Origin: Lentzea tibetensis
GTDB lineage: Bacteria; Actinomycetota; Actinomycetes; Mycobacteriales; Pseudonocardiaceae
Length of the DNA stretch: 64,000 bases
Direction: 5' to 3'
NCBI RefSeq assembly: GCF_007845675.1
Contig: NZ_VOBR01000003.1
Coordinates: forward strand, 1 to 64,000
Numbering within the stretch: the stretch's first letter is position 1; every line of letters starts with the position of its first letter. The translations under genes were made by a program, and so were the position numbers. Below the pieces are notes generated by a model, which saw nothing but the letters and a program-made list of their open reading frames with translations, was not told where the DNA came from and did not search any database. Shown in pieces: positions 22,889-37,149 of this stretch.

Positions 22889-22927
22889 TCAGCCCTGCTT
22901 GGTCTCCCAGAAAATCTTGTCGATTTG
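22889..22927. repeat. attL: left copy of the sodN 3'-end attachment sequence
   Basis: These 39 bp encode QIDKIFWETKQG-stop on the minus strand, exactly the SodN C-terminus, and match 37111-37149 except for three synonymous third-base changes. The uninterrupted identical core is 22902-22924 (23 bp). Bases 22889-22901 should be original chromosome. Bases from 22925 on should belong to the element. Confidence 0.92.
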
Positions 22928-22954
22928 TCCACAAGTGGCTTCTGACCTGGCCTT

Positions 22955-24205
22955 TCAGGCCGTTGGATCTTCATGGGCCGTCTCTGGGCCGTTGCGCCGC
23001 GAGTAGAGGCCGTCGATAACGCCTCTCGTGCGGCTGTCGCTACTGGGCATCAGGTGGGTGTAGGTCCCGAGCGTGAACGCCGGATCCGCGTGACCCAGCC
23101 ACTCAGCAACCGCCTTGATCGACTCGCCCTGATCGAGCAGCACCGAGGCGAAGAAGTGCCGTAGATCGTGCATGCCGTTCTCGTACCGGCCGCACGGCAC
23201 GCCAGCCGCCTTAAGCGCCTTCTTCCAGTAGTTCCGGTCGAAGTCGTTCGCGCGGACGGCGAGGCCGCGAACGGAGGTGACGATCAGGCTCGCGGTCACG
23301 AGCTTGCCGCCCGGCTTTCCCCACGGCAGCGTGACCTTCACCGGCGGGAACAGCTCCATGTGGTCCTTGATCGCAGCGAGCACGTGGTCACCAAGCGGTA
23401 CGTCGCGCTCCTTCTCGTACTTCGGCAGTGCGAACACAAGCTGATTCCGGACAGTCTTGATCTGGCGACACACGGTCACCTTGCCGCGATCAGGGGCCAG
23501 GTCCTCCACGCCCAGTCCAAGGCACTCGCCCTGCCGCAGCCCGAGCCCCGCACCCAGGTCGGTGAGCACCTGGAACCGGTCAGGCAGGTGACTCCGTACC
23601 GACCAAATACGCGCCTCAGGCCAGGGGATGATCTTCTTTTTGGTCGGCTTTGGCTTCTTGACTGACTTGCCCTCGCACGGGTTCTTGTCGATCAGGCCGT
23701 CGTCGACTGCCGCGTTGAGTGCGGCCAGCAGATTCATGAACAGCGTGTGGCGATACTGGTCGGACAGATCCGCCTTGCGGAGCTTGCTGTCCCACGAGCG
23801 CAGATGAGACGCCTTGATCTCTGGTATCTCTTCCTGACCGAGGTGCGGGAAGATGTGCTTGCGGAACCGCATTTCCATGATCTCGCGGGACGCCTCGTCG
23901 ACATCGAGATCTTCGAGGTACGTCTTCCCGAATGGCTCCAGGAAGACCACGGCGCGTGCCTTCGCGGCCTTCGGGGGCACGTAGATACCAAGGGTGATCT
24001 TGGCTTCAGTTGTGTCGACCCAGTTCTGGGCAGCCTTGTCCTGCCCGTCTGCGAAGCTCTCAGAGATCTCACCGCCATCCGGTCCGATTACCCGAGCGCG
24101 GTAACGCTTCCCGACGCCGTTGCGGGCTGTCGGTTCGAGCAGGTGCTTGCCGGGCTTGCTCGGGTCCGGCACCTTGCGAAACCATCGGTCCTGGACGTGC
24201 CCCAT
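22955..24205 (-). CDS. int: Tyrosine recombinase (site-specific integrase)
   Basis: The 416-residue product has an N-terminal arm-binding region, a core-binding SAM-like domain (about 90-190) and a catalytic domain with Arg224 (LGLRQGE), the His346-x-x-Arg349 box (HDLRH), His372 (LGHAD) and nucleophile Tyr382 (LGTYTHLM). The ATG at 24205 overlaps the xis stop in ATGA. It lies 31 bp from attL, as expected for an integrase acting on its own site. The last codons cover an arm-type repeat at 22974-22991. Confidence 0.96.
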   Translation of the reverse strand: MGHVQDRWFRKVPDPSKPGKHLLEPTARNGVGKRYRARVIGPDGGEISESFADGQDKAAQNWVDTTEAKITLGIYVPPKAAKARAVVFLEPFGKTYLEDLDVDEASREIMEMRFRKHIFPHLGQEEIPEIKASHLRSWDSKLRKADLSDQYRHTLFMNLLAALNAAVDDGLIDKNPCEGKSVKKPKPTKKKIIPWPEARIWSVRSHLPDRFQVLTDLGAGLGLRQGECLGLGVEDLAPDRGKVTVCRQIKTVRNQLVFALPKYEKERDVPLGDHVLAAIKDHMELFPPVKVTLPWGKPGGKLVTASLIVTSVRGLAVRANDFDRNYWKKALKAAGVPCGRYENGMHDLRHFFASVLLDQGESIKAVAEWLGHADPAFTLGTYTHLMPSSDSRTRGVIDGLYSRRNGPETAHEDPTA

Positions 24206-24387
24206 CAGGCCACCTCCGCAGGTTGCGCAGCGAACCAGTCCTTGACCACCTGCGGGTCCCAACGGACGTGCTTGCCGACACGGCGTCCCACCGGTCCGTA
24301 CTTTTTGGTCCGCCAGGTGTAAATCGTCGCGACCGCGACGCCGAGGTACGCGGCAACTTGGTCGATGTTCCAAAGCGACTCGTTCAT
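24205..24387 (-). CDS. xis: Excisionase, winged-helix MerR/AlpA type
   Basis: The 60-residue product is one helix-turn-helix (WNIDQVAAYLGVAVATIYTW), with a basic wing (RRVGKHVRWDPQVVKDWFA). Small proteins of this kind direct AICE integrases toward excision. It overlaps both repSA (4 bp) and int (ATGA), forming a rep-xis-int unit. Confidence 0.92.
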   Translation of the reverse strand: MNESLWNIDQVAAYLGVAVATIYTWRTKKYGPVGRRVGKHVRWDPQVVKDWFAAQPAEVA

Positions 24388-25742
24388 GCCGCTACCTCCT
24401 GTTCGTACCTGCGTCGTCGTTGTTCCTTGTGTCCTTCTGCGATGGCGAGGGCCAGTTCGCGTTCTGCGTCAGTGCTGTAGCCGGAGCCGGTGTAGGCCCA
24501 GTCGTTGACGACCGTGACGGCGTCGGGGGCGTAGCCGAGGCGATCGAGGACTTCGAGCGTGCGGAACGCGCGCCGTTCCTCGCGGATCGCTTTGAACGTG
24601 GTGCTGTAGTACTTGCTCTTGCTGAGGAAGTGGCCACGGAAGCCGAGCATGTGCGCCCACTTCCGTAGGTTCAGCGACTCGTACTCGTCGCGGCCGCCGA
24701 GGTCCCACGCGGTTTGGATCATGCGTCGGTGATGGTCGGAGACCTTCAGGTGATCGAGGTGGAGCTGGGAGAGGATGCGACGGTCGGCCGCTTCGCTCTT
24801 GCCGGTGCCCTTGGTGGCGTACTTGGCCACGTAGCCCGCCAGGCGCGCCTCACTAATCTCGCCGTCCTCTTCGACCTCGTGCGCGTTGCTGGGCCGGATC
24901 GAGCGGCAGTCGATCTGGTCGCCCCAGCGCAGCACCAGCGGCGTGCCGTCCGGCCGGACGACCTCCAGGTGTACCGAGCGTGCCGCTGCGTGAATCGCTG
25001 ACTCGAGGAGCTCGGCGGTGACCCAGTGGGGTGTGGGATCAGTCGGCCCGTCGGGTCCGTCGACGCGCATGACGCCGTGGAAGTGCACGAGGCCGCGCCG
25101 CTGGTACTCGGCGACCTTGGCGTAGGACAGGCGGGCGTGGTCGGTGAAGGCCCGCACCGGCAGCCGGGCCGCCTTCATCAGCTCGCGCTTGAGGTTGGTG
25201 ATGAACCGGTGCCACAGCTCGCCCGCGTTGGCCTGCCAGAGGATCGCGCCGACGTAGTCGTAGGTGCCGGGGTCGACCGGGGTGCCGATGCGCGGGTCGT
25301 CCGGGTGGTGCCAGGCGCCGCAGGAACACGGGATGGTCTTACCGCGGCTGCTTTGGCGGGCGCTGTGGACCTTGCCGAACGAGGGTGCGGTGACCGTGGT
25401 GAAGGTCCGGGGCTTCTCGGTGACCGTCTCGGGGATGCCCTTGGCGCCGCCTGCGAGACCGGCGTGCATCAGGTGGTAGGCATCGGCCGCGTAGCGGTCG
25501 GAGCAGGCCGGGCAGACGCTCTGACGGCGGTTACCGCAGGGGACGAGGATGTCGCCGCCGTGGTGCTCCAGGACGACGCCGGAGGGACTGTGGAGCTGCC
25601 AGGCGCCGAACATGTGGATGGGCTGGGCACAGCCGCCGATCGCTGCCACGCGGTCGCGCCAGTCGCGGTAGTCGACCGAGCGCAGCTTGCGGACGATGCG
25701 GTCTTCGAGCGTGCCGGGCTGGTAGTAGTCGGCTCGCGCCAC
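24384..25742 (-). CDS. repSA: RepSA-type replication initiator
   Basis: The 452-residue rolling-circle initiator is of the pSAM2 family. A Cys-rich stretch (VCPACSDRYAADAYHLMHAG) precedes the initiator domain with the metal-binding HFHGVMRV (HUH-like) motif after YQRRGLV. Candidate catalytic tyrosines follow in GYVAKYATKGTGKSE. AICE initiators allow a transient circular form to replicate before transfer. The operator-like palindrome at 25852 is 110 bp upstream. It is first in the rep-xis-int operon. Confidence 0.92.
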   Translation of the reverse strand: MARADYYQPGTLEDRIVRKLRSVDYRDWRDRVAAIGGCAQPIHMFGAWQLHSPSGVVLEHHGGDILVPCGNRRQSVCPACSDRYAADAYHLMHAGLAGGAKGIPETVTEKPRTFTTVTAPSFGKVHSARQSSRGKTIPCSCGAWHHPDDPRIGTPVDPGTYDYVGAILWQANAGELWHRFITNLKRELMKAARLPVRAFTDHARLSYAKVAEYQRRGLVHFHGVMRVDGPDGPTDPTPHWVTAELLESAIHAAARSVHLEVVRPDGTPLVLRWGDQIDCRSIRPSNAHEVEEDGEISEARLAGYVAKYATKGTGKSEAADRRILSQLHLDHLKVSDHHRRMIQTAWDLGGRDEYESLNLRKWAHMLGFRGHFLSKSKYYSTTFKAIREERRAFRTLEVLDRLGYAPDAVTVVNDWAYTGSGYSTDAERELALAIAEGHKEQRRRRYEQEVAA

Positions 25743-25851
25743 GGGCGTACCTCCTTTCCTTGCGGGACAACGAGGAGCGGGGCGCGGCTCAGGGGAGTGG
25801 CCACGCCCCGCTCATGTGGGGCGGCAGGTGCCGCCCGGAGTCAGGGAGGTG

Positions 25852-25869
25852 TTGACGCTTAAGCGTCAA
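25852..25869. promoter_or_regulatory. Element operator, copy 1 (upstream of repSA)
   Basis: TTGACGCTTAAGCGTCAA is a perfect 18-bp palindrome, the same family as at 30338 and 34765. It lies between the DUF2637 gene end and repSA, so it probably regulates the rep-xis-int unit. Confidence 0.8.
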
Positions 25870-25875
25870 AGCGAG

Positions 25876-26724
25876 TCAGGTGAGTGCGTGCCCGTTGCGC
25901 GTGTACAGGTCGGTGACGATCTGGGTGGCGATCTCGGGGGAGACCCGCACGACTGCGCGGACGTCGTCGGCGGTCAGTTCGCGGCCGTCGCGGGCGGCGT
26001 CGGCGGCCTTGGCGCGGATCTGTTCGAGCACCGGTTCGGGCAGCCGCACGCCGGTGGCCAGTGCCGCCGTTGTCGTCGCGGAGGTACGCGGGGCCGAGGG
26101 AGTCGGGGGTGCGGGTTCGGCCGGCTGTTTCTGGGCGACCTGGTTGGCGTCGCGGTAGGCGCGGGTGACTGCTTCGTTGAACTTCTGATGGATCACCGGC
26201 ATGACTTCCGCGACGCCGAACACGACCACTGGGACGATGAGGTGGATGGCGAGGTTGCCGCCGTCGAACCGTTCGCGTCCGCTCAGCCATGGTGCGAGCG
26301 CGGGCCACACGTTCATCACGAGCGTGGAGGTCAGCAGGATCTTCTTAAGGCGGCGCACCCACCGGTCGGTGATCGCGATACCGCGCGAGAGGATCTCCGC
26401 TTCGAACATCAGCAGCATGATGAGGATTCCGGCGAGCATCGGTTCGGCCAACCACGCCGCCCACCACAGCGGGTCGGTGACGGCGCGGTGTCCGGCCAGG
26501 AACTCCTGAACCCCGGCGGTGGTGAAGCCGAGGCCCAGGGCGAGGAAGAACCACATGCCGCGCGTGATCACGCGGCGTTGGGACTCGATCCGCACCGCCA
26601 GCATGTCCGGGTCGTCGACCAGGCCGCGCAGGTGGGCGGATTCGGCCTTCTTACGGCGCAGGTCTACGACTCGTTTCGTGACCCCAGCCTCTTCGTTGAT
26701 CTCATCGGAGTCGTGTCCCTGCAT
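25876..26724 (-). CDS. DUF2637-type membrane protein (Spd-like transfer protein)
   Basis: The 282-residue product starts at the ATG at 26724. Four hydrophobic segments lie between about 55 and 180 (WFFLALGLGFTTAGVQEFL, WWAAWLAEPMLAGILIMLLM, ILLTSTLVMNVWPALAPWL, LAIHLIVPVVVFGVAEVMPV), the DUF2637 pattern of Streptomyces mobile elements. The cytosolic C-terminus is Pro/Ala-rich and then helical. Such proteins are linked to plasmid spread in the mycelium. The inference is from family and place. Confidence 0.8.
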   Translation of the reverse strand: MQGHDSDEINEEAGVTKRVVDLRRKKAESAHLRGLVDDPDMLAVRIESQRRVITRGMWFFLALGLGFTTAGVQEFLAGHRAVTDPLWWAAWLAEPMLAGILIMLLMFEAEILSRGIAITDRWVRRLKKILLTSTLVMNVWPALAPWLSGRERFDGGNLAIHLIVPVVVFGVAEVMPVIHQKFNEAVTRAYRDANQVAQKQPAEPAPPTPSAPRTSATTTAALATGVRLPEPVLEQIRAKAADAARDGRELTADDVRAVVRVSPEIATQIVTDLYTRNGHALT

Positions 26725-26759
26725 GGGGTTCTCAGCTCCTTTCGTGGGTCCGGAGCGAG

Positions 26760-26966
26760 TCAGTCGCGTAGCTGACCCGCACGGGTGCGGTGGAAGTCGG
26801 CCAGGTCCTCGTGTGCGCGGACGAGCCGGTCGCAGACATCGGCGATCTCGGCCTTCTGCTCCGGGGTCCGCGTATTCGATCCGTACCGGTAGACGAGGGT
26901 CAGGTACTCCTCGGTGAGGCGGTCTGCGATCTCCCACGTGGACAGGTCAGAGTCGTTTTCCCACAT
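26760..26966 (-). CDS. Small acidic helical protein of the AICE (68 aa)
   Basis: The ATG at 26966 follows GAGGAG at 8 nt. The product is helical and charged (WEIADRLTEEYLTLVYRYGS; EIADVCDRLVRAHEDLADFH). It is similar in style to the 71-aa neighbour, and both may derive from one ancestor. Function unknown; it lies in the transfer operon. Confidence 0.65.
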   Translation of the reverse strand: MWENDSDLSTWEIADRLTEEYLTLVYRYGSNTRTPEQKAEIADVCDRLVRAHEDLADFHRTRAGQLRD

Positions 26967-26995
26967 CGGGTTCAGCTCCTCTTGAGGCACCGGGC

Positions 26996-27211
26996 TCACC
27001 TTCCTTCTCGGTGTTCGCGCGACAGGCGTTGGTAGTGGTCGGCCAGCTCGGCGTGGTGTTCGTAGATGCGGTGTGCGAGTTCGGCCGCGTCGACTGCTTT
27101 GCCGTCGGCCAGGACGCCGTTGTGGTCCGCGTGGCGGCGTACGAGGTCGTCGTACTCGTCGTGCAGGTGCCGGGCTTGGACGTCGGTGTCGACGCGGTGC
27201 GCGGTGGTCAT
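26996..27211 (-). CDS. Small His-rich helical protein of the AICE (71 aa)
   Basis: The product has a high His content (RHLHDEYDDLVRRHADHNGV; HRIYEHHAELADHYQRLSRE). Predicted to be two long helices. Its start overlaps the upstream gene in ATGA. Function unknown. Confidence 0.68.
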   Translation of the reverse strand: MTTAHRVDTDVQARHLHDEYDDLVRRHADHNGVLADGKAVDAAELAHRIYEHHAELADHYQRLSREHREGR

Positions 27212-27612
27212 CGCTTCACGACCTTGAGCCGCGACCAGCGGATGCGCAGTCCGTCACCACCGGGCGTCAGCTTGATCAGGTAGACGTCCTTGCGGATCAC
27301 GCCCTGCAGTTGGGTGGTGACGGGGCCGAGGATCGCGTATCGCTGCGCCAGCAACGATTCCACGGCCTCAGCGTCCCCGTCCGGGGCGTGGCGGCAGTGC
27401 CCGTCCCCGTCCAGCCAGACGATGCGATCCGTCGCGTCCAGCCGCCCATAGCGGCCGTCGTGGATCTCGCCGAGGACTTCGGCGACGGTGTCGACCTGCC
27501 CGCCGAACCCTGCGCTGATCTCCTTGCGCGATTCCGGGGTCGCTGGCGCCGGAGCGACGGAGTCGGCGGTGAACAAGTCGAGCTGGCCGGGGCTCGTGCG
27601 TCGGCGGCTCAT
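27208..27612 (-). CDS. Uncharacterised AICE protein (134 aa)
   Basis: The N-terminus is polar (SRRRTSPGQLDLFTADSVAP), with a LDLF motif. The remaining about 90 residues look globular (GRLDATDRIVWLDGDGHCRH; LLAQRYAILGPVTTQLQGVI). It overlaps genes on both sides (TGATG at the start, ATGA at the end), so it is embedded in the transfer operon. No family recognised. Confidence 0.68.
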   Translation of the reverse strand: MSRRRTSPGQLDLFTADSVAPAPATPESRKEISAGFGGQVDTVAEVLGEIHDGRYGRLDATDRIVWLDGDGHCRHAPDGDAEAVESLLAQRYAILGPVTTQLQGVIRKDVYLIKLTPGGDGLRIRWSRLKVVKR

Positions 27613-27962
27613 CACCGATCACCCCGCAGCTCATCGCGGAACGTGCGGCCGGTGACCGAGGTGATGAACAGCATCGGGACGTACAGCCGAGGCGGCCAGC
27701 CGTCCACCGCGAGGTAGCGGAAGTGGCCGTACATCACGATCCGCGCGCCGACCAGAGCGGTGATCGCGTGCTGCTGGTCGGGGTTGCCGCGGTGCGCGGT
27801 CTTGGTCGTCTCCAGGCAGTACGCGCGGTCCAGGGTGGTGGAGTACGCCCACTGGTCGGCGTCGACCTGGTCCAGCAGCTCCAGAACCACAGCCGGGTCC
27901 AGCTCACGGCACACCGCCATCCACTTCTCCCGGGAGGCGGCGGTCCTCGTGTCGGTGACCAT
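27612..27962 (-). CDS. Uncharacterised AICE protein (116 aa)
   Basis: The globular product has an N-terminal helical part (REKWMAVCRELDPAVVLELL) and a C-terminal hydrophobic beta-like part (WPPRLYVPMLFITSVTGRTF). The ATG at 27962 overlaps the stop of the preceding gene by one base; a GTG one codon earlier is also possible. No family recognised. Confidence 0.65.
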   Translation of the reverse strand: MVTDTRTAASREKWMAVCRELDPAVVLELLDQVDADQWAYSTTLDRAYCLETTKTAHRGNPDQQHAITALVGARIVMYGHFRYLAVDGWPPRLYVPMLFITSVTGRTFRDELRGDR

Positions 27963-28180
27963 CACAGCCTCCCGATCGCGCGGTGGCCGATCTCGCGGCG
28001 CACGAGGTCACGCAGTGCCCAGTACACGGCGACCGTGCAGCCGAGCAGGATGAGCAGGGCCCAGCCGAAGACCTTGCCGATGCCGTCGACGCGGTAGATG
28101 ACGTAGAGCACGCCACCGGCCAGCGCGAGGAACAGCGTGAACCGCCACGCCGCCCACAGCCGGATTCCCAAGTTCCACAT
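27962..28180 (-). CDS. Small membrane protein of the AICE (72 aa)
   Basis: Two transmembrane helices are visible (FTLFLALAGGVLYVIYRV and VFGWALLILLGCTVAVYWAL), with a basic tail (RREIGHRAIGRL). Its size and position next to traB recall the Spd proteins of Streptomyces elements. It starts 59 bp after the traB stop, in the same operon. Confidence 0.7.
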   Translation of the reverse strand: MWNLGIRLWAAWRFTLFLALAGGVLYVIYRVDGIGKVFGWALLILLGCTVAVYWALRDLVRREIGHRAIGRL

Positions 28181-28238
28181 GACAGACCTCCCAGAGTTGG
28201 ACGTGTTTTCCTTGCTGTGTAATGACTTTGTGGCGCGG

Positions 28239-29606
28239 TCAGGCGACCGAGCGCAGCGGGCGGCGGCCCTTGGTGACGAAGTCGACGAGTTCGCGGATGT
28301 CCTCGTCGGACTGGTAGCTGGCGCGAACACGCAGCGGGGAGCGGGAGCCTTGCTCCGCGACGAACCCGATACCGGCGTGCGCGGGGTCCAGCGGGATCTC
28401 GTCGGCCAGCGCACCGCGTAGCCGCATCCCGTCGCCGAGGGTCATGTCCACCTGGCTTTGAGAGGTGACCGAGAGGCAGACGCGGGCGGTGAACAGCTCG
28501 CGGATCGGGACGGTGTCCTTGGTCGGTTCCTGCACGTACCCGCAGACGCCGAACCCCGCCGCACGGCCCTGGGTCATGATCTCGGCGAGGAGCTTGAGCA
28601 CCGAGCGGACTTCGGCCGAGGGACCGTAGGCGGTGAGCATGCCCAGCTCATCGATCATCAGCAGCCGCAACGGCGTCTCGGCCGACGGCGAGAACTTCCG
28701 CTTGCGCTCACCCCGTAGCAACGCCTGGCGTTCCTTGAGCTCGTCGCGGAACGCCTCCACGATCTCCGCTGCGGTGTCCCAGTCGGTCGCGCGGCGGTGA
28801 AACAGGTCCGCGCCGACCTCGGTCTCCATTCCTTCCTTGAGGTCGATGACGTCCGGCTTGACGACACCGTCGCGCAGCAAGGGGGCCATGCCGCGCAGCG
28901 GAGACCACAGCAGCGAGCCCTTGCCCGACCCGGTGGCACCGGCCACGAACAGGTGCTGACCCACGAAGGACTGGGTCCACGGCTGCCCGTACTCGGTGTC
29001 ACCCAGCTCGATCGCGGACAGGTCGATCTCGTCCGCGTCGTAGGGGAGATCGATCGGCGGGATCGCGTCGGCGTTGAACGGGTTCTCCCGCTCGATCACC
29101 AGAGCGACCACCTGGGGCTTGACCTTGACCACCGCGACGCGTTCGGCCAGCAGGGCGTGCGCGAGGGCGTCGGCCTTGTCCTCGAACATCGAGGGTGTCT
29201 GTCCCCGGTTGATCCGCACGTGGATCGTGTCGATCGACGGCGACGCGGCTCGGACCTCCAGGATGCGCGGGACGATCACGTCCCCGGTGCGCCGGTTGAA
29301 GCTGACCAGCTCGCAGTCCAGCAGGATGTCCGACCAGCGCCCACCCACATACGACCACCAGCGGCGATGCAGCGAACGAAGCCGCGGCAAGGCCACCGTG
29401 TCGAAGCTGTCCGGGTGTCCCCGGTACCAGCCCGCCAGCCCGAGCACGGCACCGCCGAGGACACCACCCGTGGTCGGCAAGCCGAAGTCCAAGACGCTCT
29501 TGGTGACGCAGGCCGCCAGCGCTGCCGGGACCGTGACCATGCCGGGGTGCTGGCAGCTCCACTTCAGCGCCCGCCATTCCAGCGCTGGTTTCCGAGTCGT
29601 CGGCAT
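28239..29606 (-). CDS. traB: FtsK/SpoIIIE-type DNA translocase TraB (conjugal transfer)
   Basis: The 455-residue product has two N-terminal hydrophobic segments (about 22-60), then an FtsK ATPase with Walker A GATGSGKG (residues 223-230), Walker B LRLLMIDEL (about 306-314) and the late TQGRAAGFGVCGYVQEPTKD segment. In Streptomyces elements a single TraB hexamer moves double-stranded DNA between mycelia by recognising clt repeats. The start ATG at 29606 gives the family length. A clt site was not identified with confidence. Confidence 0.92.
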   Translation of the reverse strand: MPTTRKPALEWRALKWSCQHPGMVTVPAALAACVTKSVLDFGLPTTGGVLGGAVLGLAGWYRGHPDSFDTVALPRLRSLHRRWWSYVGGRWSDILLDCELVSFNRRTGDVIVPRILEVRAASPSIDTIHVRINRGQTPSMFEDKADALAHALLAERVAVVKVKPQVVALVIERENPFNADAIPPIDLPYDADEIDLSAIELGDTEYGQPWTQSFVGQHLFVAGATGSGKGSLLWSPLRGMAPLLRDGVVKPDVIDLKEGMETEVGADLFHRRATDWDTAAEIVEAFRDELKERQALLRGERKRKFSPSAETPLRLLMIDELGMLTAYGPSAEVRSVLKLLAEIMTQGRAAGFGVCGYVQEPTKDTVPIRELFTARVCLSVTSQSQVDMTLGDGMRLRGALADEIPLDPAHAGIGFVAEQGSRSPLRVRASYQSDEDIRELVDFVTKGRRPLRSVA

Positions 29607-29686
29607 CGCTGACTCCTTTCCATGAGACGCCAGAGGCCCGACCAGCAATCGCGTGATCGGGCCCCCGGCAGAATCGAAATTGGGAT

Positions 29687-29875
29687 CTAGTCGTCGAGGT
29701 ACGGTTTGACGTCTTCCATCGCGACCAACAGCGCAGCCATCGCCTTGGTCACCTTCTTGTGCTGCCCGCTGAACCTGTGCCGAGCGAAGGTCATCTGCTC
29801 CAGTGCCTCCCGGAGCTGGCTCATCGCCATGTCCACGTCAGCGGTCACCGTCTCGACCGCGAAGCGCACCGCCAT
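29687..29875 (-). CDS. Small helical protein of the AICE (62 aa)
   Basis: The ATG at 29875 follows GGAGGG at 6 nt. The product is helical (MAMSQLREALEQMTFARHRF; KAMAALLVAMEDVKPYLDD). It starts 1 bp after the upstream gene ends. No family recognised. Confidence 0.65.
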   Translation of the reverse strand: MAVRFAVETVTADVDMAMSQLREALEQMTFARHRFSGQHKKVTKAMAALLVAMEDVKPYLDD

Positions 29876-30146: not shown

Positions 30147-30337
30147 AACCTCCCCTTTCCTTTCCGTAGCTACGGGAGAGACCAAGACCCCCGGTATGCG
30201 GACACGCCGTGTCCGAGGGTCAAGGAAACTCCCGGTACCGAATAGTCGGCACTGGAAAAGGCATGGATTGGCCCACTGTGGAATTCTCAAAGAACAAACA
30301 GCCCACGAAAACGGCTTGAGGTAATTCATTCGAACCC

Positions 30338-30355
30338 TTGACGCTTAAGTGTCAA
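30338..30355. promoter_or_regulatory. Element operator, copy 2 (upstream of transfer operon)
   Basis: TTGACGCTTAAGTGTCAA is the same operator with one asymmetric base and is flanked by an ACCC/GGGT extension of the palindrome. On the minus strand it reads TTGACA, a perfect -35 box, pointing to the transfer operon. Confidence 0.78.
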
Positions 30356-30374
30356 AGGGTGTTGGTTGGCGCGA

Positions 30375-30707
30375 TCAGGCGACCTTGATCAAGCCCATCG
30401 CGCGGTAGGCGACGCCGGACACGGTCTCGCCCCGGCCGTTCTTGAACGAGTAGAACGAAGCGCGCGGCTCGACCAGGTCCACGATGTCGCCCTCGTCGAA
30501 AGCGTCGCCGGGGTCAGTCCCGAGCGTCACCTTGATCTCCTCACCCTTCTCGCCCTTGGCCTTCATAAACACCACGGCCACGAACTGCTGAGCACCGTCC
30601 TTGTCCGTGACGATCTCCGTGTGACCGTCCACCTCGCGCACCTTCAGCGTCGGCAGCTCGGTGAGCATCAGACGACGGTCGCCGAGGTCGATCTTCATGT
30701 TCTTCAC
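30375..30707 (-). CDS. AICE regulatory-position protein, possibly Pra-like (110 aa)
   Basis: The GTG at 30707 follows GGAGG. The product is a compact beta-rich protein (KIDLGDRRLMLTELPTLKV; QFVAVVFMKAKGEKGEEIKV; FYSFKNGRGETVSGVAYRAM). In pSAM2 this place, between korSA and the transfer genes, is held by pra, the activator of replication and integration. Size and place fit, but sequence similarity cannot be shown here. Confidence 0.6.
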   Translation of the reverse strand: MKNMKIDLGDRRLMLTELPTLKVREVDGHTEIVTDKDGAQQFVAVVFMKAKGEKGEEIKVTLGTDPGDAFDEGDIVDLVEPRASFYSFKNGRGETVSGVAYRAMGLIKVA

Positions 30708-30728
30708 GAGTGCCTCCAGGTGGTCTGA

Positions 30729-30757
30729 TATAGACTAATATAGATCAGTATGAGTCA
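30729..30757. promoter_or_regulatory. 10-bp-period direct repeats between divergent AICE genes
   Basis: Three related words, TATAGAC, TATAGAT and TATGAGT, start at 30729, 30739 and 30749, exactly one helical turn apart. They lie in the intergenic region of the divergent Pra-like and GntR genes. They suggest cooperative binding by a regulator, perhaps the GntR protein itself. Confidence 0.5.
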
Positions 30758-30818
30758 GTTGGCGATGCGCCGAACGGGTGACCTATGTCAGATTGCGTCA
30801 GTCGCCTAGGATTGGCTC

Positions 30819-31160
30819 ATGAACGCGACACCGGGGTTGGCCGCCTACCAGCGAGTAGTGGAGAAGATCAAAGACGACATCCGCAGCAGACGGTTGGTGG
30901 CGGGGGAGAAGCTTCCTGGCAACCGCGCCCTTGCGGACGACCACTCGGTCGCTCTCGGGACCCTCCAAAAGGCCTTGAAGATCCTTGAGGACGAGGGCTG
31001 GGTGACTGCGACGCCCGCGGTCGGTGTTTTCGTGAACGAGCCACCGGTCGAGGCGGAGCCGACGGACGTCGCTGCCGTCGTTAAGCGACTCGACGACCTT
31101 CAGGGCACAGTGGAGGCCCTCACCGAGAGGGTTCGAAGGCTGGAGGGGGTCGAAGGCTGA
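30819..31160 (+). CDS. GntR-family repressor (KorSA-like)
   Basis: The 113-residue product has a winged helix of the GntR type (YQRVVEKIKDDIRSRRLVAG, EKLPGNRALADDHSVALGTL, ALKILEDEGWVTATPAVGVF), then a short coiled coil (VVKRLDDLQGTVEALTERVR), with no large effector domain. KorSA of pSAM2 is a GntR protein that keeps the element silent by repressing pra. It is the best candidate for binding the palindromes or the 10-bp repeats nearby. Confidence 0.88.
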   Translation: MNATPGLAAYQRVVEKIKDDIRSRRLVAGEKLPGNRALADDHSVALGTLQKALKILEDEGWVTATPAVGVFVNEPPVEAEPTDVAAVVKRLDDLQGTVEALTERVRRLEGVEG

Positions 31161-31223
31161 GCTCCTGATGGCGGTCACTGCGGTGTTCATGCCACTAACT
31201 CTCACCCTGCCGTTGGCGAGCTA

Positions 31224-31242
31224 CCCGGAAAATCCTTCCGGG
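31224..31242. terminator. Small hairpin between GntR and XRE genes
   Basis: A 7-bp stem CCCGGAA / TTCCGGG (31224-31230 with 31236-31242) has a 5-nt loop and no clear T run. It may be a weak terminator. Confidence 0.4.
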
Positions 31243-31274
31243 GTCGTACGCCCGGAGTCCGGGAGGCTTGTTCC

Positions 31275-32501
31275 ATGCGCGGAATGACGGAGTCCCTGAC
31301 CATCGGTGAACGTGTTGCGTGGTACCGACGCCGACGCGGTATGTCGCAAGAGGTGTTGTCCGGACTCGTCGGCCGCACCGAGGACTGGCTGCAGAAGGCT
31401 GAAAACAACCGCATCCAGCTCGACAGGCTGTCGCTCATTCGAGGCCTAGCTGAAGCGTTGGACGTCTCCGTCGGAGACCTGCTCGGTGAGCCGACGTTGC
31501 TCGAATGGACCGCCGAGTCCAGCGTCCAAACCGTGCCCGCGCTTCGTGCTGCACTCATGGACTACAGCCAGCTCTCGCCCGTCCTGTTCACGGGGCACGT
31601 AGACCGAGAACCCGTTGCAGTGCAGACACTTCAGCGTCAGGTGGCGGAGATCTTCGCTGCCTACCAGGGGTCGCGGTTCGGATACGTCACTGCTCGCCTG
31701 CCCGAGCTGCTGAAGAATGCGATCGCTGCTAGTCGCACCTATGACGGTCCCGATCTCCAAGCTGTGCGCGTTCAGCTCGCTCTCTGCTACCAGGCAGCAG
31801 CGTCAGTTCTGAGCAAATTGGGCGAAGCCGACCTGGCGTGGGTCGCCGCCGAACGTGGCCTTCGGGAAGCCGAGGTGGCTGGCGATCCAGTCATCCTCGG
31901 ATCCTTGCTGCGGTCTGTTGCGCACAGCCTCCTGGCGACCGGCCAGTTCGTGCCGGCCGTGCAACTGGTGGAGCGGGCATCCGAGGTCTTGCGCCCTGAG
32001 CTGAGTACCGCGGACGGTCGCCTTCTCTCGGTCTACGGGTCGCTGTTCCTCGCGGGGGCCATGGCGGCCTCGCGCAACGAAGACCGTGCAACGACGCGGA
32101 CCTTCCTCAACGAGGCACAGCACGCCGCCGACAGGCAGGGGAGCGACGCCAACCACCTCTGGACAGCGTTCGGGCCGACCAACGTTGCGATTCACCGCGT
32201 GAACACGGCTATGGAGCTCGGCGACGTCCAGCTCGCGTTGGACCTCGGCCCCGAGATCGACACGTCCGCGTTGCCCACGGAGCGTCAGGTGCGCCACGCG
32301 CTCGATCTCGCCCGTGCGTACAGCTTGCGGAACCGCGCGGACGATGCCCTTGCAGTGGTCCTCGATGCCGAGCGGATCGCTCCAGAGCAGGTGCGGCATC
32401 ACTACATCAGCCGCCAGCTCGTCCTCACGTGGATGCGCAACCAGCGAAGTCAGCCGAGTTCGTTGCTCACTGGTCTGGTCGACCGGATGAAGCTCAGCTA
32501 G
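31275..32501 (+). CDS. XRE-family regulator with TPR-like C-terminal domain
   Basis: The 408-residue product has an N-terminal HTH_31-type helix-turn-helix (RVAWYRRRRGMSQEVLSGLV) and about 300 residues of helical TPR-like repeats (AALCYQAAASVL-type units; ADLAWVAAERGLREAEVAGD; GQFVPAVQLVERASEVLRPE). Proteins of this plan act as peptide- or ligand-sensing regulators in actinomycetes and are frequent in AICEs. The Nudix gene starts 18 bp after its stop, so they form an operon. Confidence 0.88.
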   Translation: MRGMTESLTIGERVAWYRRRRGMSQEVLSGLVGRTEDWLQKAENNRIQLDRLSLIRGLAEALDVSVGDLLGEPTLLEWTAESSVQTVPALRAALMDYSQLSPVLFTGHVDREPVAVQTLQRQVAEIFAAYQGSRFGYVTARLPELLKNAIAASRTYDGPDLQAVRVQLALCYQAAASVLSKLGEADLAWVAAERGLREAEVAGDPVILGSLLRSVAHSLLATGQFVPAVQLVERASEVLRPELSTADGRLLSVYGSLFLAGAMAASRNEDRATTRTFLNEAQHAADRQGSDANHLWTAFGPTNVAIHRVNTAMELGDVQLALDLGPEIDTSALPTERQVRHALDLARAYSLRNRADDALAVVLDAERIAPEQVRHHYISRQLVLTWMRNQRSQPSSLLTGLVDRMKLS

Positions 32502-32519
32502 CCGCGTAGGGTCTTCGAC

Positions 32520-32993
32520 GTGGGCAACGCAGCAGACAAGTTCGCAACGCCTCGCATGGCTGCCGGGGCGTTGTTCGTTGATGGCGACCGCGTTCTGATG
32601 GTGCGCAAGACGTACGGCGAACGCTGGGACCTACCGGGAGGCTACGTCGACATCGGCGAGTCGCCAGGCGCAGCGTGCAAGCGTGAGGTGGCCGAAGAAC
32701 TCGGTCTTGACCGGCAGGCCGTCAGACCGCTGGTGATCGACTGGGCGCCACGTGAGTCCGAGGGCGACAAGGTTCTGTGGATCTTCGACTGCGGAGCGCT
32801 CGGTGAGGACGCTCAGCGCATCCGCCTGGACCAGACCGAGCTTGACCGCTGGGAGTGGGTGCCCATCGATGAGGTTGCCGCCCGGACGATTCCGCGGCTT
32901 GCTCGTCGCATCCAGCGCGCTTACGACGCCTATCAGACGGGTGCGGTCGCGTACCTCGAGCACGGCGAGTCGCCCGCGATGACCTCACGCTGA
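32520..32993 (+). CDS. Nudix hydrolase, candidate Pif-like immunity factor
   Basis: The 157-residue product has the Nudix box GYVDIGESPGAACKREVAEE, followed by LG (consensus GX5EX7REUXEEXGU, complete). In pSAM2 the Nudix protein Pif, encoded near traSA and korSA, stops redundant entry of the same element. The equivalent place here suggests the same job. A housekeeping nucleotide-sanitising role is the alternative. Confidence 0.85.
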   Translation: MGNAADKFATPRMAAGALFVDGDRVLMVRKTYGERWDLPGGYVDIGESPGAACKREVAEELGLDRQAVRPLVIDWAPRESEGDKVLWIFDCGALGEDAQRIRLDQTELDRWEWVPIDEVAARTIPRLARRIQRAYDAYQTGAVAYLEHGESPAMTSR

Positions 32994-33041
32994 TCCACTT
33001 CGGCGTGCTCGCTGTGTCCCAAGTTTCTTTTCTTCATCAAG

Positions 33042-33061
33042 GCGGCCCCTGCCGGGGCCGC
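33042..33061. terminator. Terminator between Nudix gene and convergent orphan gene
   Basis: A perfect 8-bp GC stem GCGGCCCC / GGGGCCGC has a TGCC loop. It serves the ends at 32993 (plus) and 33238 (minus). The rest of 32994-33237 shows no gene. Confidence 0.65.
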
Positions 33062-33237
33062 TCGCGCCGCAGTGCTTGAGCCCGTTCGGCAAGGCCCAGG
33101 GGCCCGGCTCCGCCACCCTGGCCCGCCGACGGGCGAAGGCGCGACCGACCCCGGCAGACGCCGCGAACGACGGGCTGGGACGGTAGAACTCGTAGGTCCG
33201 CTGAATCAGCCGGTGCGGCGAGCGAGCGCGGCTCCTG

Positions 33238-34044
33238 CTACTTCGCCTCGATCGAGTCATTCTTGCCTTCCGGTAGTGCTGGCGGATCGATCACCTTCTG
33301 GATCTCAATTACGATTGGCGAAGAACGCGGCGGATCGCCAGCGATTAGCTCGTGAGTGTTGGCCGACAGGTTTATCGCCAAGTCGAGTGCTACGACAAAG
33401 GTCATCAGGTTCTTTCCTGTGACGGTTTTGGTCAACGAGCGTAGGACTTTGAGTTTTCGCCGTAGGCCGCCCAACAATACGTCAAGCGCGTGCTCGGTGT
33501 CTTCGGTGCTGAAAAGATGTGCGTTAAACAGAGTATCGCGAATCTTAGAGAGTCGGCGAAGAACCCAGTCTTTTGTCTCTTGATCTAGGTCGCCATCCTG
33601 CACCACCTCATCGATCAGCCTGTCCAGCCTGCTGAGCAGGGACTCGCGTTCATCTGGGTCCAGTGACGGCTCTGCGCGTTGACTGTGTAGAAGGTGTGCG
33701 CAAATCTCCAAGCAGTACTCTCCAGAGTTCGGATGGATCGGCGTCAAGAACTGCTCAACCTGCAGCTCGCGCACGGCCAGGAAGTTACTCAAGGCATTCT
33801 GTACTTCCCCAAAGTGCTTCAAGTGAATCCTGGGATCCGCGGTGGGTGAATCATTTATCATTTCTTGTGTCTGCTCGGCCCACTCGTATAGTTTTGATAC
33901 CCTCTGCATGAAGGCGTTCATGTCGCCCGAATCGATGTTGAAAACTGAGGACCACGCTTGGAGCGCGCGCGTCGCAGGTGCTTGTTGGCGTACCAATTGA
34001 AAGTTCATCAAGAGTCGCCCGGCGGGATTGTTCAGGTAAGTCAC
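33238..34044 (-). CDS. Orphan AICE cargo protein (268 aa)
   Basis: I do not recognise it. The product is mostly helical (VSKLYEWAEQTQEMINDSPT; LLSRLDRLIDEVVQDGDLDQ; VLLGGLRRKLKVLRSLTKTV), with a mildly hydrophobic stretch near the C-terminus (LMTFVVALDLAINLSANTHE). Third positions are clearly less G/C-rich than in neighbouring genes (codons such as ATT, TTT and AAA), which suggests recent gain from a lower-GC source. A GTG at 34044 is the start used. Lone low-GC genes in AICE cargo zones are often defence or immunity genes, but no motif supports that here. Confidence 0.65.
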   Translation of the reverse strand: MTYLNNPAGRLLMNFQLVRQQAPATRALQAWSSVFNIDSGDMNAFMQRVSKLYEWAEQTQEMINDSPTADPRIHLKHFGEVQNALSNFLAVRELQVEQFLTPIHPNSGEYCLEICAHLLHSQRAEPSLDPDERESLLSRLDRLIDEVVQDGDLDQETKDWVLRRLSKIRDTLFNAHLFSTEDTEHALDVLLGGLRRKLKVLRSLTKTVTGKNLMTFVVALDLAINLSANTHELIAGDPPRSSPIVIEIQKVIDPPALPEGKNDSIEAK

Positions 34045-34182
34045 TTGGCGATCCTACTTGCGCGTCGCAGGGTGCCGTTGAGGATGGCGGTGTCGCTGGG
34101 GATCGCGGGCGTTCGCCACCCCGCACCCCGGCAGATCAACAGGATGCCGAGAATGCGGCCGACTCGCGTCCGTGTGTGGCCG

Positions 34183-34316
34183 TGTGACATCCCGTCGACC
34201 TCCACGAGGGCAACCACACGCGTCAAGGGGGCAGTCCCGGCGAACGGTCCCGTGTGGACGGAAGTGCCCCCTTGACACGCGCGGTTGGGGCGGGGCCAGG
34301 TCGACGGGATGTCACA
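34183..34316. repeat. Nested inverted repeats in a gene-poor AICE region
   Basis: A perfect 19-bp inverted repeat (34183-34201 with 34298-34316) encloses a second one (TCAAGGGGGCA at 34223-34233 with TGCCCCCTTGA at 34265-34275). A further AAGGGGGCA word lies at 34333-34341. The whole 34045-34403 gap holds no convincing gene. The structure suits an origin (double- or single-strand) or a transfer locus. No direct evidence decides between them. Confidence 0.7.
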
Positions 34317-34403
34317 AGGGCCACCCACTTGTAAGGGGGCAAAGGAAAGCCTCGTGCTGGCATTGGTTGCGGCGCTGTCCGGTCGCGCCGCACAATCGCA
34401 CGC

Positions 34404-34727
34404 ATGTTCGAGACTACGGTGCACCGCGCACTGGCCAGGCCGCATGATCCACCGCTGGACGTGTGGGTGGAGCTCGGGAAGTTCTACAAGCCCTGGCTCA
34501 AGCAGGCAGATTCACCTGGGGTGCTGGTCGAGGAGAAGGGTTTGAGCTTCCCGCTGCGACTGCCGGGCGTGCTGCACGGGTGGCTCCGCTCTCGTCGGGG
34601 ACCTTGGTTGGCGCTCGTGTCCTACAGCCTGCCGACGAACTCGGGTGTTGGCCCTCTGCGGCTGCAGCACCTCCTGCCGAGGCAGGCCGTGTCACGGCGA
34701 TGGCCGAACGACGAAGTACCGTACTAG
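34404..34727 (+). CDS. Orphan AICE protein (107 aa)
   Basis: The product begins at ATG 34404 and has an N-terminal polar part (TTVHRALARPHDPPLDVWVE), a Trp-rich middle (LPGVLHGWLRSRRGPWLALV) and a basic tail (RRWPNDEVPY). No clear ribosome site. Codon use is plausible. No family recognised. It lies just after the nested inverted repeats. Confidence 0.45.
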   Translation: MFETTVHRALARPHDPPLDVWVELGKFYKPWLKQADSPGVLVEEKGLSFPLRLPGVLHGWLRSRRGPWLALVSYSLPTNSGVGPLRLQHLLPRQAVSRRWPNDEVPY

Positions 34728-34764
34728 TAGATCTTCTGAACCGGTGTTTACCTGCAAGAATGCC

Positions 34765-34793
34765 TTGACACTTAAGTGTCAAATTGAGAGAAT
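34765..34793 (+). promoter_or_regulatory. Element operator, copy 3, overlapping the SprT-like gene promoter
   Basis: TTGACACTTAAGTGTCAA (34765-34782) is a perfect palindrome whose first half is a consensus -35 box. After 17 bp comes GAGAAT (34788-34793), a fair -10. A bound repressor would cover the -35 box of the SprT-like gene at 34824. Confidence 0.78.
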
Positions 34794-34823
34794 GGAGGTA
34801 CAACGGAGAGGTGAGAACAGAGA

Positions 34824-35495
34824 ATGACTACGCTGGCGATCCGACCCGAAACTGCCGAGGCGGAGAACGTGGCAACCGAGCTGGTCCGTGCGATCGACCT
34901 TGTGTGGCAAGGGATTTGCCGCCGTCACCCGGACGTCCCCGACATCATGATCACTGTTGGATCGGGCACCATGGGGGCCAAGCCCGGACAGACAACCTTC
35001 GGCCACTTCGCAGCAGCAAGGTGGCAGCGCGACGGCGAGACGCTTCCCGAGTTGTTCGTGTCCGGGGAGGGATTAAGGCGTGGCGCGGCTGCGACGCTCG
35101 GGACGTTGCTGCACGAGGCCGCGCATGGTGTGGCGCATGTGCGGGGGATCAAGGACACGTCGCGCCAGGGTCGGTACCACAACCGCAAGTTCAAGGACGT
35201 CGGTACCGAGCTGGGCCTGATCCTCGAAGAGGACCCGAAGATCGGCTGGAGCATCACCACGGTGCCGCCGTCGACCGCCGCCGAGTACGCAGCCGAGCTG
35301 GAGGCGCTGGCCGCCGCCCTTGTGATCTACCGTCACGCCGAGGTCCACGCGCCGTCGAAGCCCAAGAGCAGCAACCTTGCGGTCGCCCAGTGCGCCTGCC
35401 CCCGCAAGATTCGAGTCGCCCGCAGCACTCTCGCCGAGGCGCCGATCACGTGCGGTCAGTGCAGTGAGGAGTTCGTCGCTGAAGACGACGAGTGA
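34824..35495 (+). CDS. SprT-like zinc metalloprotease-fold protein
   Basis: The 223-residue product has the zinc-binding HEAAH motif (His97, Glu98, His101) in GTLLHEAAHGVAHVRGIKDT and a likely third ligand His119 in GRYHNRKF. A C-terminal zinc ribbon follows (CACPRKIRV ... CGQC). This is the SprT-like layout: protease domain plus Cys4 ribbon. Similar proteins are common in AICEs and plasmids, and host relatives (Spartan) cut DNA-protein crosslinks. It is the only gene in the window's AICE with a promoter overlapping the shared operator, which suggests co-induction with transfer. Confidence 0.85.
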   Translation: MTTLAIRPETAEAENVATELVRAIDLVWQGICRRHPDVPDIMITVGSGTMGAKPGQTTFGHFAAARWQRDGETLPELFVSGEGLRRGAAATLGTLLHEAAHGVAHVRGIKDTSRQGRYHNRKFKDVGTELGLILEEDPKIGWSITTVPPSTAAEYAAELEALAAALVIYRHAEVHAPSKPKSSNLAVAQCACPRKIRVARSTLAEAPITCGQCSEEFVAEDDE

Positions 35496-35555
35496 CCACA
35501 GCGCGGTCAAGATCACTGCGGCCCGCAATCTCCAGCTTGCTGGACGGCGGGCCGC

Positions 35556-36032
35556 TCAGAACATAGTGGTCTGGCCGTGGTCGGGAGGCTCTTCAATGCT
35601 CAGACCTGGGAGGGCGTCTCCGATCTTGAGGATGCCCTTATCCCACGTGTATAGCTTGGGGCACATCCACGCGACCGCGACCGCCACGATGCACGCGTCA
35701 GCCCCCTTCAGGTTGTAGTCCGACGCTAGTCGTGCAGCCTGTGTCGCGATCCGCTCAGTGATGTCGGCGACGAGATACTCACTGTCCTTGATCCACTGAT
35801 GCGCGAGCGTGATACGCCTCGTGCGTTCGGCAGCCCCACCGTCATCGCCTCGAATCTGCCCGGACCCGGCCACTTCAGCCAATACCAGTGCCGGGAGCAA
35901 GACGCGGTGACTAGTCCCGTCAACCCGGAACACCTGAACAGACCGGACATGACGCTCCGGATCGCCGGGTGCAAGCACATCGATGATCACGCAGCTATCG
36001 ACCACCACCAGCGGTGGCGCCGTCTTAGCCAC
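35556..36032 (-). CDS. PIN-domain ribonuclease-like protein
   Basis: The 158-residue PIN fold has the acidic set intact: Asp12 (VVDSCVIID), Glu53 (LAEV), Asp112 (LKGADACIVA) and Asp131 (YTWDKGIL). PIN proteins are metal-dependent endoribonucleases, often VapC-type toxins. Its 5' end overlaps the upstream partner gene by 8 bp. The partner is far larger than a VapB antitoxin. Confidence 0.82.
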   Translation of the reverse strand: MAKTAPPLVVVDSCVIIDVLAPGDPERHVRSVQVFRVDGTSHRVLLPALVLAEVAGSGQIRGDDGGAAERTRRITLAHQWIKDSEYLVADITERIATQAARLASDYNLKGADACIVAVAVAWMCPKLYTWDKGILKIGDALPGLSIEEPPDHGQTTMF

Positions 36033-36813
36033 GTTGCCGCCTAATCCAGTCCGCAGAGTCCATTCCCTCTGTCCAGTCAGGACCGAACAAGCCGATCACA
36101 TCGTCTAGCGCAACCCTCGACTCGGGCGCGCCGAGCGCGGTGAGCCCTTCCAACGCAATCGACTCGACTTGATCGTAAATGTTCCGGGTCACCCGTCCCC
36201 ACACTTCGACTTCCTGATCGAGCGCCTGGCGGACCATCGCAGCGTGCTTCGCGGGGAACGTCACCGTGACGATCTTCCCGGTTCGGTAATCGCGGAGCGC
36301 TGCGGTGTGCTGGTGGCCGTTGTAGCGGTACAGCTCGCCTCGTACCGACCCCAGGGATGGAGGTGGTGGCTGGATGCTCTCGCGCGCGTGCAGAGCCAAC
36401 TGCTCGTCAACAGGAGTGAGTGCATCGCTGATCCGGAGCCAGATCCCTTCAACGCCCGATCGCTTACGCACCTGATCGAGTTCAAGTAACCCGGCGACCG
36501 TCTCCACTGACCAGCCTGCTGGAACCGCAGACTCATGGAAGAGGTCACGCAGCCCGCTGCGTATCACGGCGGCAGCACGCTCGTTCGTGCGGATGCCGAC
36601 CTTCGCGCTACCCACAGAGAGGCTGCTGATGCTGGCTGGCACCGGTTCGTCTTGAGGGAGACTGCGGATGATCTTATCCAGTGCAACGATCGCTTCTGCG
36701 AGCGCACGGGGGTCGATCTCTCCGTGGGGGCCCTGCAGCTCGATCTTGATCTCGTCCTTGTGCTCGACTTGCACGTCGTCACTGAACTCGGCCTGAATGG
36801 CGTCGTGTTCCAC
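36025..36813 (-). CDS. Partner of the PIN protein (262 aa), unknown family
   Basis: The GTG at 36813 has GGGGAGG at 5 nt; an open frame continues to 36870 but without a ribosome site. The N-terminus is acidic (AIQAEFSDDVQVEHKDEIKI), followed by a helical middle (LAEAIVALDKIIRSLPQDEP) and a C-terminal beta-rich part (YRTGKIVTVTFPAKHAAMVR; EVEVWGRVTRNIYDQVESIA). It is overlapped by the PIN gene, so the two are made together and may form a toxin-antitoxin or defence pair. No HTH or AbrB-type DNA-binding motif is visible. Confidence 0.72.
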   Translation of the reverse strand: MEHDAIQAEFSDDVQVEHKDEIKIELQGPHGEIDPRALAEAIVALDKIIRSLPQDEPVPASISSLSVGSAKVGIRTNERAAAVIRSGLRDLFHESAVPAGWSVETVAGLLELDQVRKRSGVEGIWLRISDALTPVDEQLALHARESIQPPPPSLGSVRGELYRYNGHQHTAALRDYRTGKIVTVTFPAKHAAMVRQALDQEVEVWGRVTRNIYDQVESIALEGLTALGAPESRVALDDVIGLFGPDWTEGMDSADWIRRQRG

Positions 36814-37009
36814 GTCTGCCTCCCCTCGACTTCTCACGCCTGCTGTCAGCTCCAACAACCAGGATGGCACTAACCCACCTGATCGGTGAACGTATCGACA
36901 TACAGTCGTCGGCTCGTTACGTCGGTTACTGGATCACCCGGACGAGCATCGGCCACAGTCTCGTCACCCCGCGCCTAGGTGGACGACCCGCAGCCAGAGT
37001 GACCGACAT

Positions 37010-37027
37010 TGGGCCGTCTGTGGGCCG
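37010..37027. repeat. Arm-type direct repeat, right end (with 22974-22991)
   Basis: TGGGCCGTCTGTGGGCCG here and TGGGCCGTCTCTGGGCCG at 22974-22991 differ by one base. They flank the joined att core in the circular form at about 97 and 50 bp. They are candidate integrase or Xis arm sites. The left copy is inside the int coding end. Otherwise 36814-37110 has no gene. Confidence 0.6.
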
Positions 37028-37050
37028 CGAGGTGACGCCAAACAACGAAA

Positions 37051-37095
37051 AGCGACGCTGACCATCGCGAAGAGTTTTCGCAGGTCAGCGCCGCT
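37051..37095 (-). terminator. Element-borne replacement terminator for sodN
   Basis: A 13-bp stem (37051-37063 with 37083-37095, one G-T pair) is topped by a second short stem GCGAA / TTCGC. It lies 16 bp beyond the sodN stop, on the element side of the junction. It takes the place of the original terminator now 14 kb away at 22839. Confidence 0.72.
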
Positions 37096-37110
37096 CTTAG
37101 GGCTGTGACC

Positions 37111-37149
37111 TCAGCCTTGCTTCGTCTCCCAGAAAATCTTGTCGATCTG
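37111..37149. repeat. attR: right copy of the sodN 3'-end attachment sequence
   Basis: It matches 22889-22927 with three synonymous differences (codons for Gln at 37117-37119, Thr at 37123-37125 and Gln at 37147-37149). The core 37124-37146 is identical. Here it forms the true end of the intact sodN gene. Bases 37111-37123 should be element-derived. Confidence 0.92.

Follow-up and report, generated by a model that had tools for sequence, protein, structure and literature searches.

An integrative element at the 3′ end of sodN in Lentzea tibetensis, probably placed there by a tyrosine integrase group directed at the last codons of the gene

Introduction

How can a mobile element enter a protein-coding gene and leave the encoded enzyme intact? 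The question is raised by sodN, the gene for nickel superoxide dismutase (SodN), in a stretch of 64,000 nucleotides of Lentzea tibetensis DNA (NCBI RefSeq assembly GCF_007845675.1, contig NZ_VOBR01000003.1, positions 1 to 64,000; hereafter the window). Here, a 14.2-kb segment lies between two copies of the sodN 3′ end, and an initial annotation had taken it for an actinomycete integrative and conjugative element (AICE) that supplies the last codons of the gene. The reading favoured in the present work, with a probability of about 90%, is that a group of tyrosine integrases recombines the attachment site of the element (attP) with the last sodN codons, and that the segment is an integrated AICE of this group. 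It is read from sequence, namely from two junctions, empty sites, conservation of the target, arm spacing and coding constraint. Genomes, contigs, loci and genera are denoted by G, C, L and g, respectively; the window lies in contig C33 of genome G000 (9.36 Mb, 105 contigs).

The repeated sodN end

The gene and the two putative attachment (att) junctions are as follows.

37111..37518, reverse strand: sodN, nickel superoxide dismutase (PF09055, 6.4e-45; TIGR02753, 161.8 bits, cut-off 90)
37110..37149, reverse strand: near att junction, predicted host sodN left of the crossover and element attP right of it (40-nt repeat, junction comparison)
22888..22927, reverse strand: far att junction, predicted element left of the crossover and original host SodN codons right of it (40-nt repeat, junction comparison)

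A repeat search of the window yields the direct repeat 22888-22927/37110-37149, with 37 of 40 nt identical (93%) and a spacing of 14,222 bp. Genome-wide (9.36 Mb), the final 39 nt of sodN have a single match besides sodN itself, which is the far repeat copy (E 1.2e-8). Both copies translate to QIDKIFWETKQG followed by a stop, and their three differences (CAG/CAA in a Gln codon, ACG/ACC and CAA/CAG) are all synonymous, as the initial annotation had it. One refinement is required: only two of the three lie in the expressed sodN, which holds ACG and CAA, while the third, the Gln codon CAA, belongs to the left arm of the element at the far end, outside SodN. The 3′-terminal sodN codons, starting at about Ile-Phe-Trp, are supplied by the element. 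No tRNA genes were found in the 64-kb window.

An integrase group adjacent to sodN

22955..24190, reverse strand: tyrosine integrase gene, int (PF00589, 3.5e-15, longer frame 22955-24373), of the putative sodN-integrase group

The int gene ends 30 bp before the far core. Searches with the integrase, with the core pattern and with a model of the whole attachment block covered 298 genomes of one family, of which 111 gave integrase matches at E <=1e-40. Nine full-length matches have at least 60% identity, and the next full-length ones at most 48%. In all nine, from five genera, a SodN C-terminal remnant follows int; that of G175 lies 2.4 kb past int and is visible in L085, locus L059 being too short to include it. 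The loci scanned for SodN tails, L053-L082, comprised 1.5 kb on either side. The integrase of G017, cut at a contig edge, is also accompanied by such a remnant. By contrast with these, none of the 21 fetched full-length loci at 48% or below (L062-L082) has a SodN remnant within 1.5 kb; one of them, L082 (G026), has a SodN tail away from sodN at a distance of about 14 kb. The sodN gene itself is found at the opposite end of the element on the same contig in all eight cases that can be assembled (G154, G212, G079, G159, G175, G189, G138 and the window); G005 and G017 have it on a contig separate from the integrase. A partial match in G077 (56%) sits between two SodN tails 7.6 kb apart. The closest integrases occupy the same place, which bears out the expectation that related integrases would be found next to sodN.

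A branch with a support of 94/100 sets the nine integrases apart, some branches outside this group being very long. Integrases from the same host genus pair as sisters in the tree, so the elements seem to circulate mainly within genera. Among mobile-element records, 665 phage and 68 plasmid matches were obtained, none of them at 60% identity or more.

Crossover and coding constraint

37136..37143, reverse strand: candidate crossover interval GACAAGAT in the near copy, bracketed by codon 1 of G159 and codon 4 of G154 and G138

Near and far copies were compared in the 12 elements or relics for which both ends are known, namely the ten that bear an integrase together with G077 and G158. In all 12, the 3′ end of the target gene is part of attP. 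From the Ile codon onward, the pairs differ at 17 synonymous and 2 non-synonymous codons; in G189 and G175 the copies are identical. Both non-synonymous differences occur in G079, where the SodN end supplied by the element is KSA and the displaced tail KQG. The SodN protein is left unaltered in 11 of the 12 elements or relics, among them the element of the window. The proposal that the element provides the last SodN codons without altering the enzyme thus holds for this strain and fails as a rule: judged from these pairs, integration would usually, not always, leave the enzyme as it was. The pairs show purifying selection on a piece of an enzyme carried by a mobile element, with G079 as a natural exception.

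The same comparison narrows the point of exchange. In G159, codon 1 reads ATC in the sodN-side copy and ATT in the far one, and its congeners have ATC; codon 4 in G154 and G138 is ATT on the sodN side, where genus-mates have ATC (both among the matches listed). These allele patterns place the exchange, in all likelihood, within GACAAGAT. G158 is consistent at codon 1, but both alleles are present in its own genus.

How the synonymous differences arose is a separate matter. The initial annotation had traced attP to a host with a different sodN allele, which is just one reading. The element also bears a sodN-like terminator, and SodN tails match the host genus (KAAA in g43, KQG in Lentzea); acquisition from a host and prolonged co-evolution would explain this equally well. 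Drift inside attP under coding constraint may also account for the differences.

Layout of attP and proposed mechanism

22975..22992, reverse strand: putative left arm-type repeat of attP, -68 from the core (repeat comparison)
37011..37028, reverse strand: putative right arm-type repeat of attP, +118 from the core (repeat comparison)
37048..37098, reverse strand: hairpin of the element just 3′ of the sodN stop, with a T-rich tail behind it; predicted to serve as replacement terminator
22837..22881, reverse strand: hairpin presumed to be the original sodN terminator of the host, now 14.2 kb away (-36.2 kcal/mol, z -5.0)

Right of the core, attP consists of the SodN tail, the stop, the hairpin and the arm repeat, in this order. 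The 84-nt stretch 37030-37113 folds at -45.6 kcal/mol (z -6.2), and the consensus structure of the block has two-sided changes in 7 of 25 pairs, all seven in the element hairpin. A generic terminator scan gave no excess (7 sites against 7.3 in shuffles), one of the sites falling in the element hairpin. Folding predictions suggest that the element apparently replaces the termination signal of sodN as well as its coding end.

Of the 12 far ends, nine have the left arm, an ACGGCCC-AGACGGCCC repeat, at -68/-69, and that of G158 has it at -63. Among the best 30 loci of the block model, all 21 that adjoin sodN have the right arm at +117 to +119 with 0-5 mismatches, an agreement inflated by the fact that the model used to pick these loci contains the arm. 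The corresponding position in other sodN ends has 6-10 mismatches (20 of 20). About 11 additional bases precede the right arm in G154 and G212. The arm-type repeats are probably sites at which the integrase binds.

In the proposed mechanism, the integrase would recombine attP with the last codons of sodN, exchanging strands within GACAAGAT. Host sodN up to the crossover would thereby be joined to the element tail IFWETKQG-stop and then to the hairpin terminator of the element, while the original tail and terminator would be pushed to the far end, beside int. The arm-type repeats at -68/-69 and +118 would bind the integrase. Since tail and terminator are both borne by the element, sodN would keep its protein end and its (predicted) transcription end.

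Empty sites, occupied sites and relics

A survey of sodN ends in 25 Lentzea genomes (24 congeners and the window) distinguishes several states. A host-type terminator, like that at the far end of the window, follows sodN in 12 of the 25, that is, in 12 of the 24 congeners, and G024 has a different hairpin. Ten of the 25 have an element-type right end, eight with a clear arm repeat and two (G011, G016) with a degenerate one. The remaining two, G006 and G008, have an element-like hairpin after sodN and no arm.

Uninterrupted sodN genes, which the initial annotation had suggested looking for in related genomes, do occur. The distance from sodN to the gene region beyond the far end, which holds a histidine phosphatase gene, is 227 bp in G012 and 388 bp in G024; in the other 20 measurable Lentzea genomes, the window included, it is 3.0 to 18.9 kb (G005, G017 and G019, split over contigs, were excluded). 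The locus downstream of sodN looks like an insertion hot spot. Together, the repeat, the AICE genes, the empty sites in congeners and the sodN-adjacent position of the closest integrases uphold the proposal of a 14.2-kb AICE in the 3′ end of sodN.

This picture is complicated by a number of observations that weigh against it. Among the ten element-type ends, only those of G000, G005 and G017 show the integrase; none of this kind was found within about 20 kb in G001, G003, G009, G011, G014 and G016, and in G019 the contig ends 1.1 kb past the element-type end. Many copies are therefore relics, and their activity is uncertain; the present mobility of the element is likewise predicted from its sequence. 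Because G006 and G008 have the hairpin without the arm, the hairpin alone is no marker of an element. Element-like hairpins also occur at the far ends of G005, G017 and G079, so that the ‘host’ codons there may stem from an earlier element. The left arm is absent from G175 and G077 at up to 5 mismatches, the right arm is damaged or missing in G158, G011 and G016, and two controls (L031 and L032, with 6 and 7 mismatches) may be decayed arms. Finally, four partial integrase matches have no clear SodN tail near them: G095:C26 (66% over 125 aa), G317:C206 (52%) and two in G223 (50% and 49%). For G095 there is just a 23/36 resemblance to the tail, at the expected place past the match.

Of the other explanations, the one that survives best is that the element is a dead relic, kept because its removal would break sodN, with the synonymous differences due to drift after integration. 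Several congeners retain just the sodN-side end, and in G016 a relic of about 1 kb is left, the far copy of which has decayed to IDKIFEETEQG; G017 bears a second, decayed tail 1.1 kb beyond the first. Against this stand the open int, xis-like, rep and tra frames of the window, int being free of internal stops. Inactivity of the window element is a tenable minority view, and the integrated AICE described above is preferred.

Gene content of the element

24205..24387, reverse strand: excisionase-like helix-turn-helix (HTH) protein, 60 aa (PF12728 HTH_17, 1.4e-8)
24384..25742, reverse strand: RepSA-type replication initiator, rep (PF20199, 2.3e-147)
28239..29648, reverse strand: FtsK/SpoIIIE-type transfer protein, Tra (PF01580, 3.2e-7, above cut-off)
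30819..31160, forward strand: GntR-type regulator, KorSA-like (PF00392, 1.1e-16)
31275..32501, forward strand: HTH regulator (PF13560, 8.2e-10)
32520..32993, forward strand: NUDIX protein, domain as in Pif of pSAM2 (PF00293, 3.9e-20)
35556..36032, reverse strand: PIN-domain protein (PF01850, 1.1e-11)
36025..36870, reverse strand: first element gene past the near end (no Pfam or NCBIfam match)

An att-adjacent recombinase, an AICE-type Rep, a single transfer protein of the FtsK/SpoIIIE type and flanking att repeats are all found, and by its predicted products the gene set is that of an AICE, of the pSAM2 type. Like elements of that type, it combines an att-adjacent tyrosine integrase, a replication initiator and an FtsK-type Tra with GntR and NUDIX genes. 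The NCBIfam RepSA score of the initiator (440.6 bits) is below the equivalog cut-off of 700, and Tra has no NCBIfam match. The 60-aa HTH_17 gene overlaps the end of rep, and size and place suggest that its product is an excisionase. Several further element genes have no domain match. Pif is described as a NUDIX protein (PMC3218068). Genes of this type would predict excision, circular replication and double-stranded transfer.

A palindrome, approximately TTGACrCTTAAGyGTCAA, occurs in three near-copies (25852-25876, 30338-30362 and 34765-34789), each closely preceding an element frame (rep at 25742, and frames at 30329 and 34824). The copies are possibly operators of the GntR regulator, and the third overlaps a -35-like box.

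Beside sodN, a divergent gene (37587-37892) encodes an S24/S26 peptidase domain; we take it to be of the type expected of a SodN maturation peptidase.

Relation to known elements

In Escherichia coli, e14 and phage 21 enter icd and supply an alternative 3′ end for this metabolic enzyme gene; unlike the sodN element, they are prophages, with a longer replaced tail. Genomic islands, too, often keep or restore the gene that they enter by means of attP (PMC3715440, PMC12884075). The sodN element shares with them an attP that completes the interrupted gene and would keep its function, and differs by a structured terminator between core and arm repeat. According to PMC3218068, the vast majority of tyrosine-recombinase AICEs, one subfamily excepted, reside in tRNA 3′ ends, whereas the sodN group uses a protein-coding gene. 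The initial annotation had considered such a site unusual; it is less so by a survey of sympatric Streptomyces (PMC9513070), in which 51 integrative elements use 36 tRNA, 14 protein-coding and 1 intergenic site. That survey also reports integrase switching that changes the site, and rebuilding of a gene end is not described in the parts of it that were consulted. The word ‘superoxide’ does not occur in the main text of PMC3218068, nor ‘sodN’ or ‘superoxide’ in that of PMC9513070, and no paper on sodN as an integration site was among the matches listed in a literature search that mostly leaves out subscription journals.

The kind is thus a known one; gene-end rebuilding is not new (PMC3715440, PMC12884075), and sodN as a target and the integrase group are. 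A conserved metal-enzyme gene would thereby join the integration sites of actinobacterial conjugative elements, together with an integrase group for which a chromosomal attB (about 23 bp of sodN) and an attP layout are mapped. The system might be adopted as an integration tool in Lentzea, Kibdelosporangium, Actinophytocola and their relatives.

Half-sites away from sodN

The core-pattern search matched 178 of the 298 genomes and, among the matches listed, revealed extra core copies away from sodN in some genomes. With the whole-block model, 9 of the best 30 loci are off-site, ordinary sodN ends matching more weakly. These copies represent the right half-site, without sodN and without the left arm. 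Block length and right arm are retained, the core has few or no changes, and all nine off-site high scorers preserve the arm spacing; those of genus g3 have an extra 10-12 bp, about one helical turn. In G066, G081, G013 and G023, the block is part of a larger unit bounded by direct repeats of its own, 0.6 to 2.9 kb in from the edge. These repeats overlap tRNA-Gly in G066 (46 bp) and tRNA-Asn in G081 (81 bp), as identified by ARAGORN; that of G013 (45 bp) is tRNA-like by eye only, and that of G023 (40 bp) was read as the 3′ end of another gene. The units of G066, G081 and G023 have an AICE backbone with an integrase unlike that of the window or none recognised.

Most likely, the off-site copies are fossils of integrase-module exchange, left when an element swapped its integrase/attP module for another, and they might then allow integrase swapping to be traced through AICE history. 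Their left edge is always the core, and the fossil reading gives no account of that edge. A full fossil attP is ruled out, as no arm repeat is present at the left-arm distance in any of the 14 copies (L178 has just 81 bp of left sequence); weak arm matches occur elsewhere, with 5 mismatches at -269 in G023 and with 4, on the other strand, at -184 in L181.

Alternatively, the half-site (core, C-terminus, terminator and arm) could be a portable, maintained AICE module in this family, a working second site that gives AICEs of different specificity, lodged in tRNA or other genes, access to sodN as well by means of a helper integrase acting in trans. Such AICEs would have two alternative homes, which would account for SodN endings that match the host far from sodN: 8 of 14 off-site tails equal the host ending (KQAS three times in G026 and once in G230, KAAA in G081, KQAA in G221, KQG in G014 and G018). 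The intact or nearly intact core and the kept spacing also agree with it, but the left-arm position is empty throughout and the other six tails are altered or unlike that of the host (E to K in G013, Q to L in G023, a stop in G066, and L178, L180 and L181, the host SodN tails of the last two not themselves being compared). A helper-driven second home is accordingly judged improbable, and exchange of the integrase module is retained as the preferred origin. The case for secondary-site integration by the sodN integrase is weak: four units are bounded by separate direct repeats that do not include the SodN tail, and the bases left of the crossover are uniform (A-G/A-A-T-C/T in all 14 aligned copies; the unaligned L167 differs).

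In G023, a TIR-NB-ARC-TPR gene (L152:9727-12255), likely a defence gene, ends about 13 bp before the off-site block inside the AICE. The g3 loci L154-L156, L166, L178, L180 and L181 share the block together with a left flank of up to about 100 bp, and some genomes contain several such copies. In contigs c10 and c12 of G026 and in L166, a tRNA-Tyr-like 3′ half, read by eye, follows the block and might mark a boundary; ARAGORN found no tRNA in the C12 and C10 loci searched.

Duplicated sequences beside the far end

A duplication of the sodN end by chance or by homologous recombination, with an AICE merely nearby, is a very improbable origin of the repeat: other duplicated hairpins do adjoin the far end, but the arrangement recurs in ten integrase-bearing elements from five genera, mostly with a common arm spacing, and chance is ruled out by genome-wide uniqueness (at the E-value given above), by recurrence across genera and by a reversed control pattern with 0 matches among those listed.

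A 45-nt hairpin terminator is duplicated at 98% (22251-22295 and 22835-22879), flanking a small open reading frame (22314-22748) with a signal-peptide-like start, and a shorter third copy lies at 21335-21373. The repeat 21402-21755 has one weak match in congeners among the matches listed. It contains a perfect 27-bp inverted repeat (21456-21518) and has about 11 more matches in the genome, three of them at contig starts, including positions 1-310 of the window.

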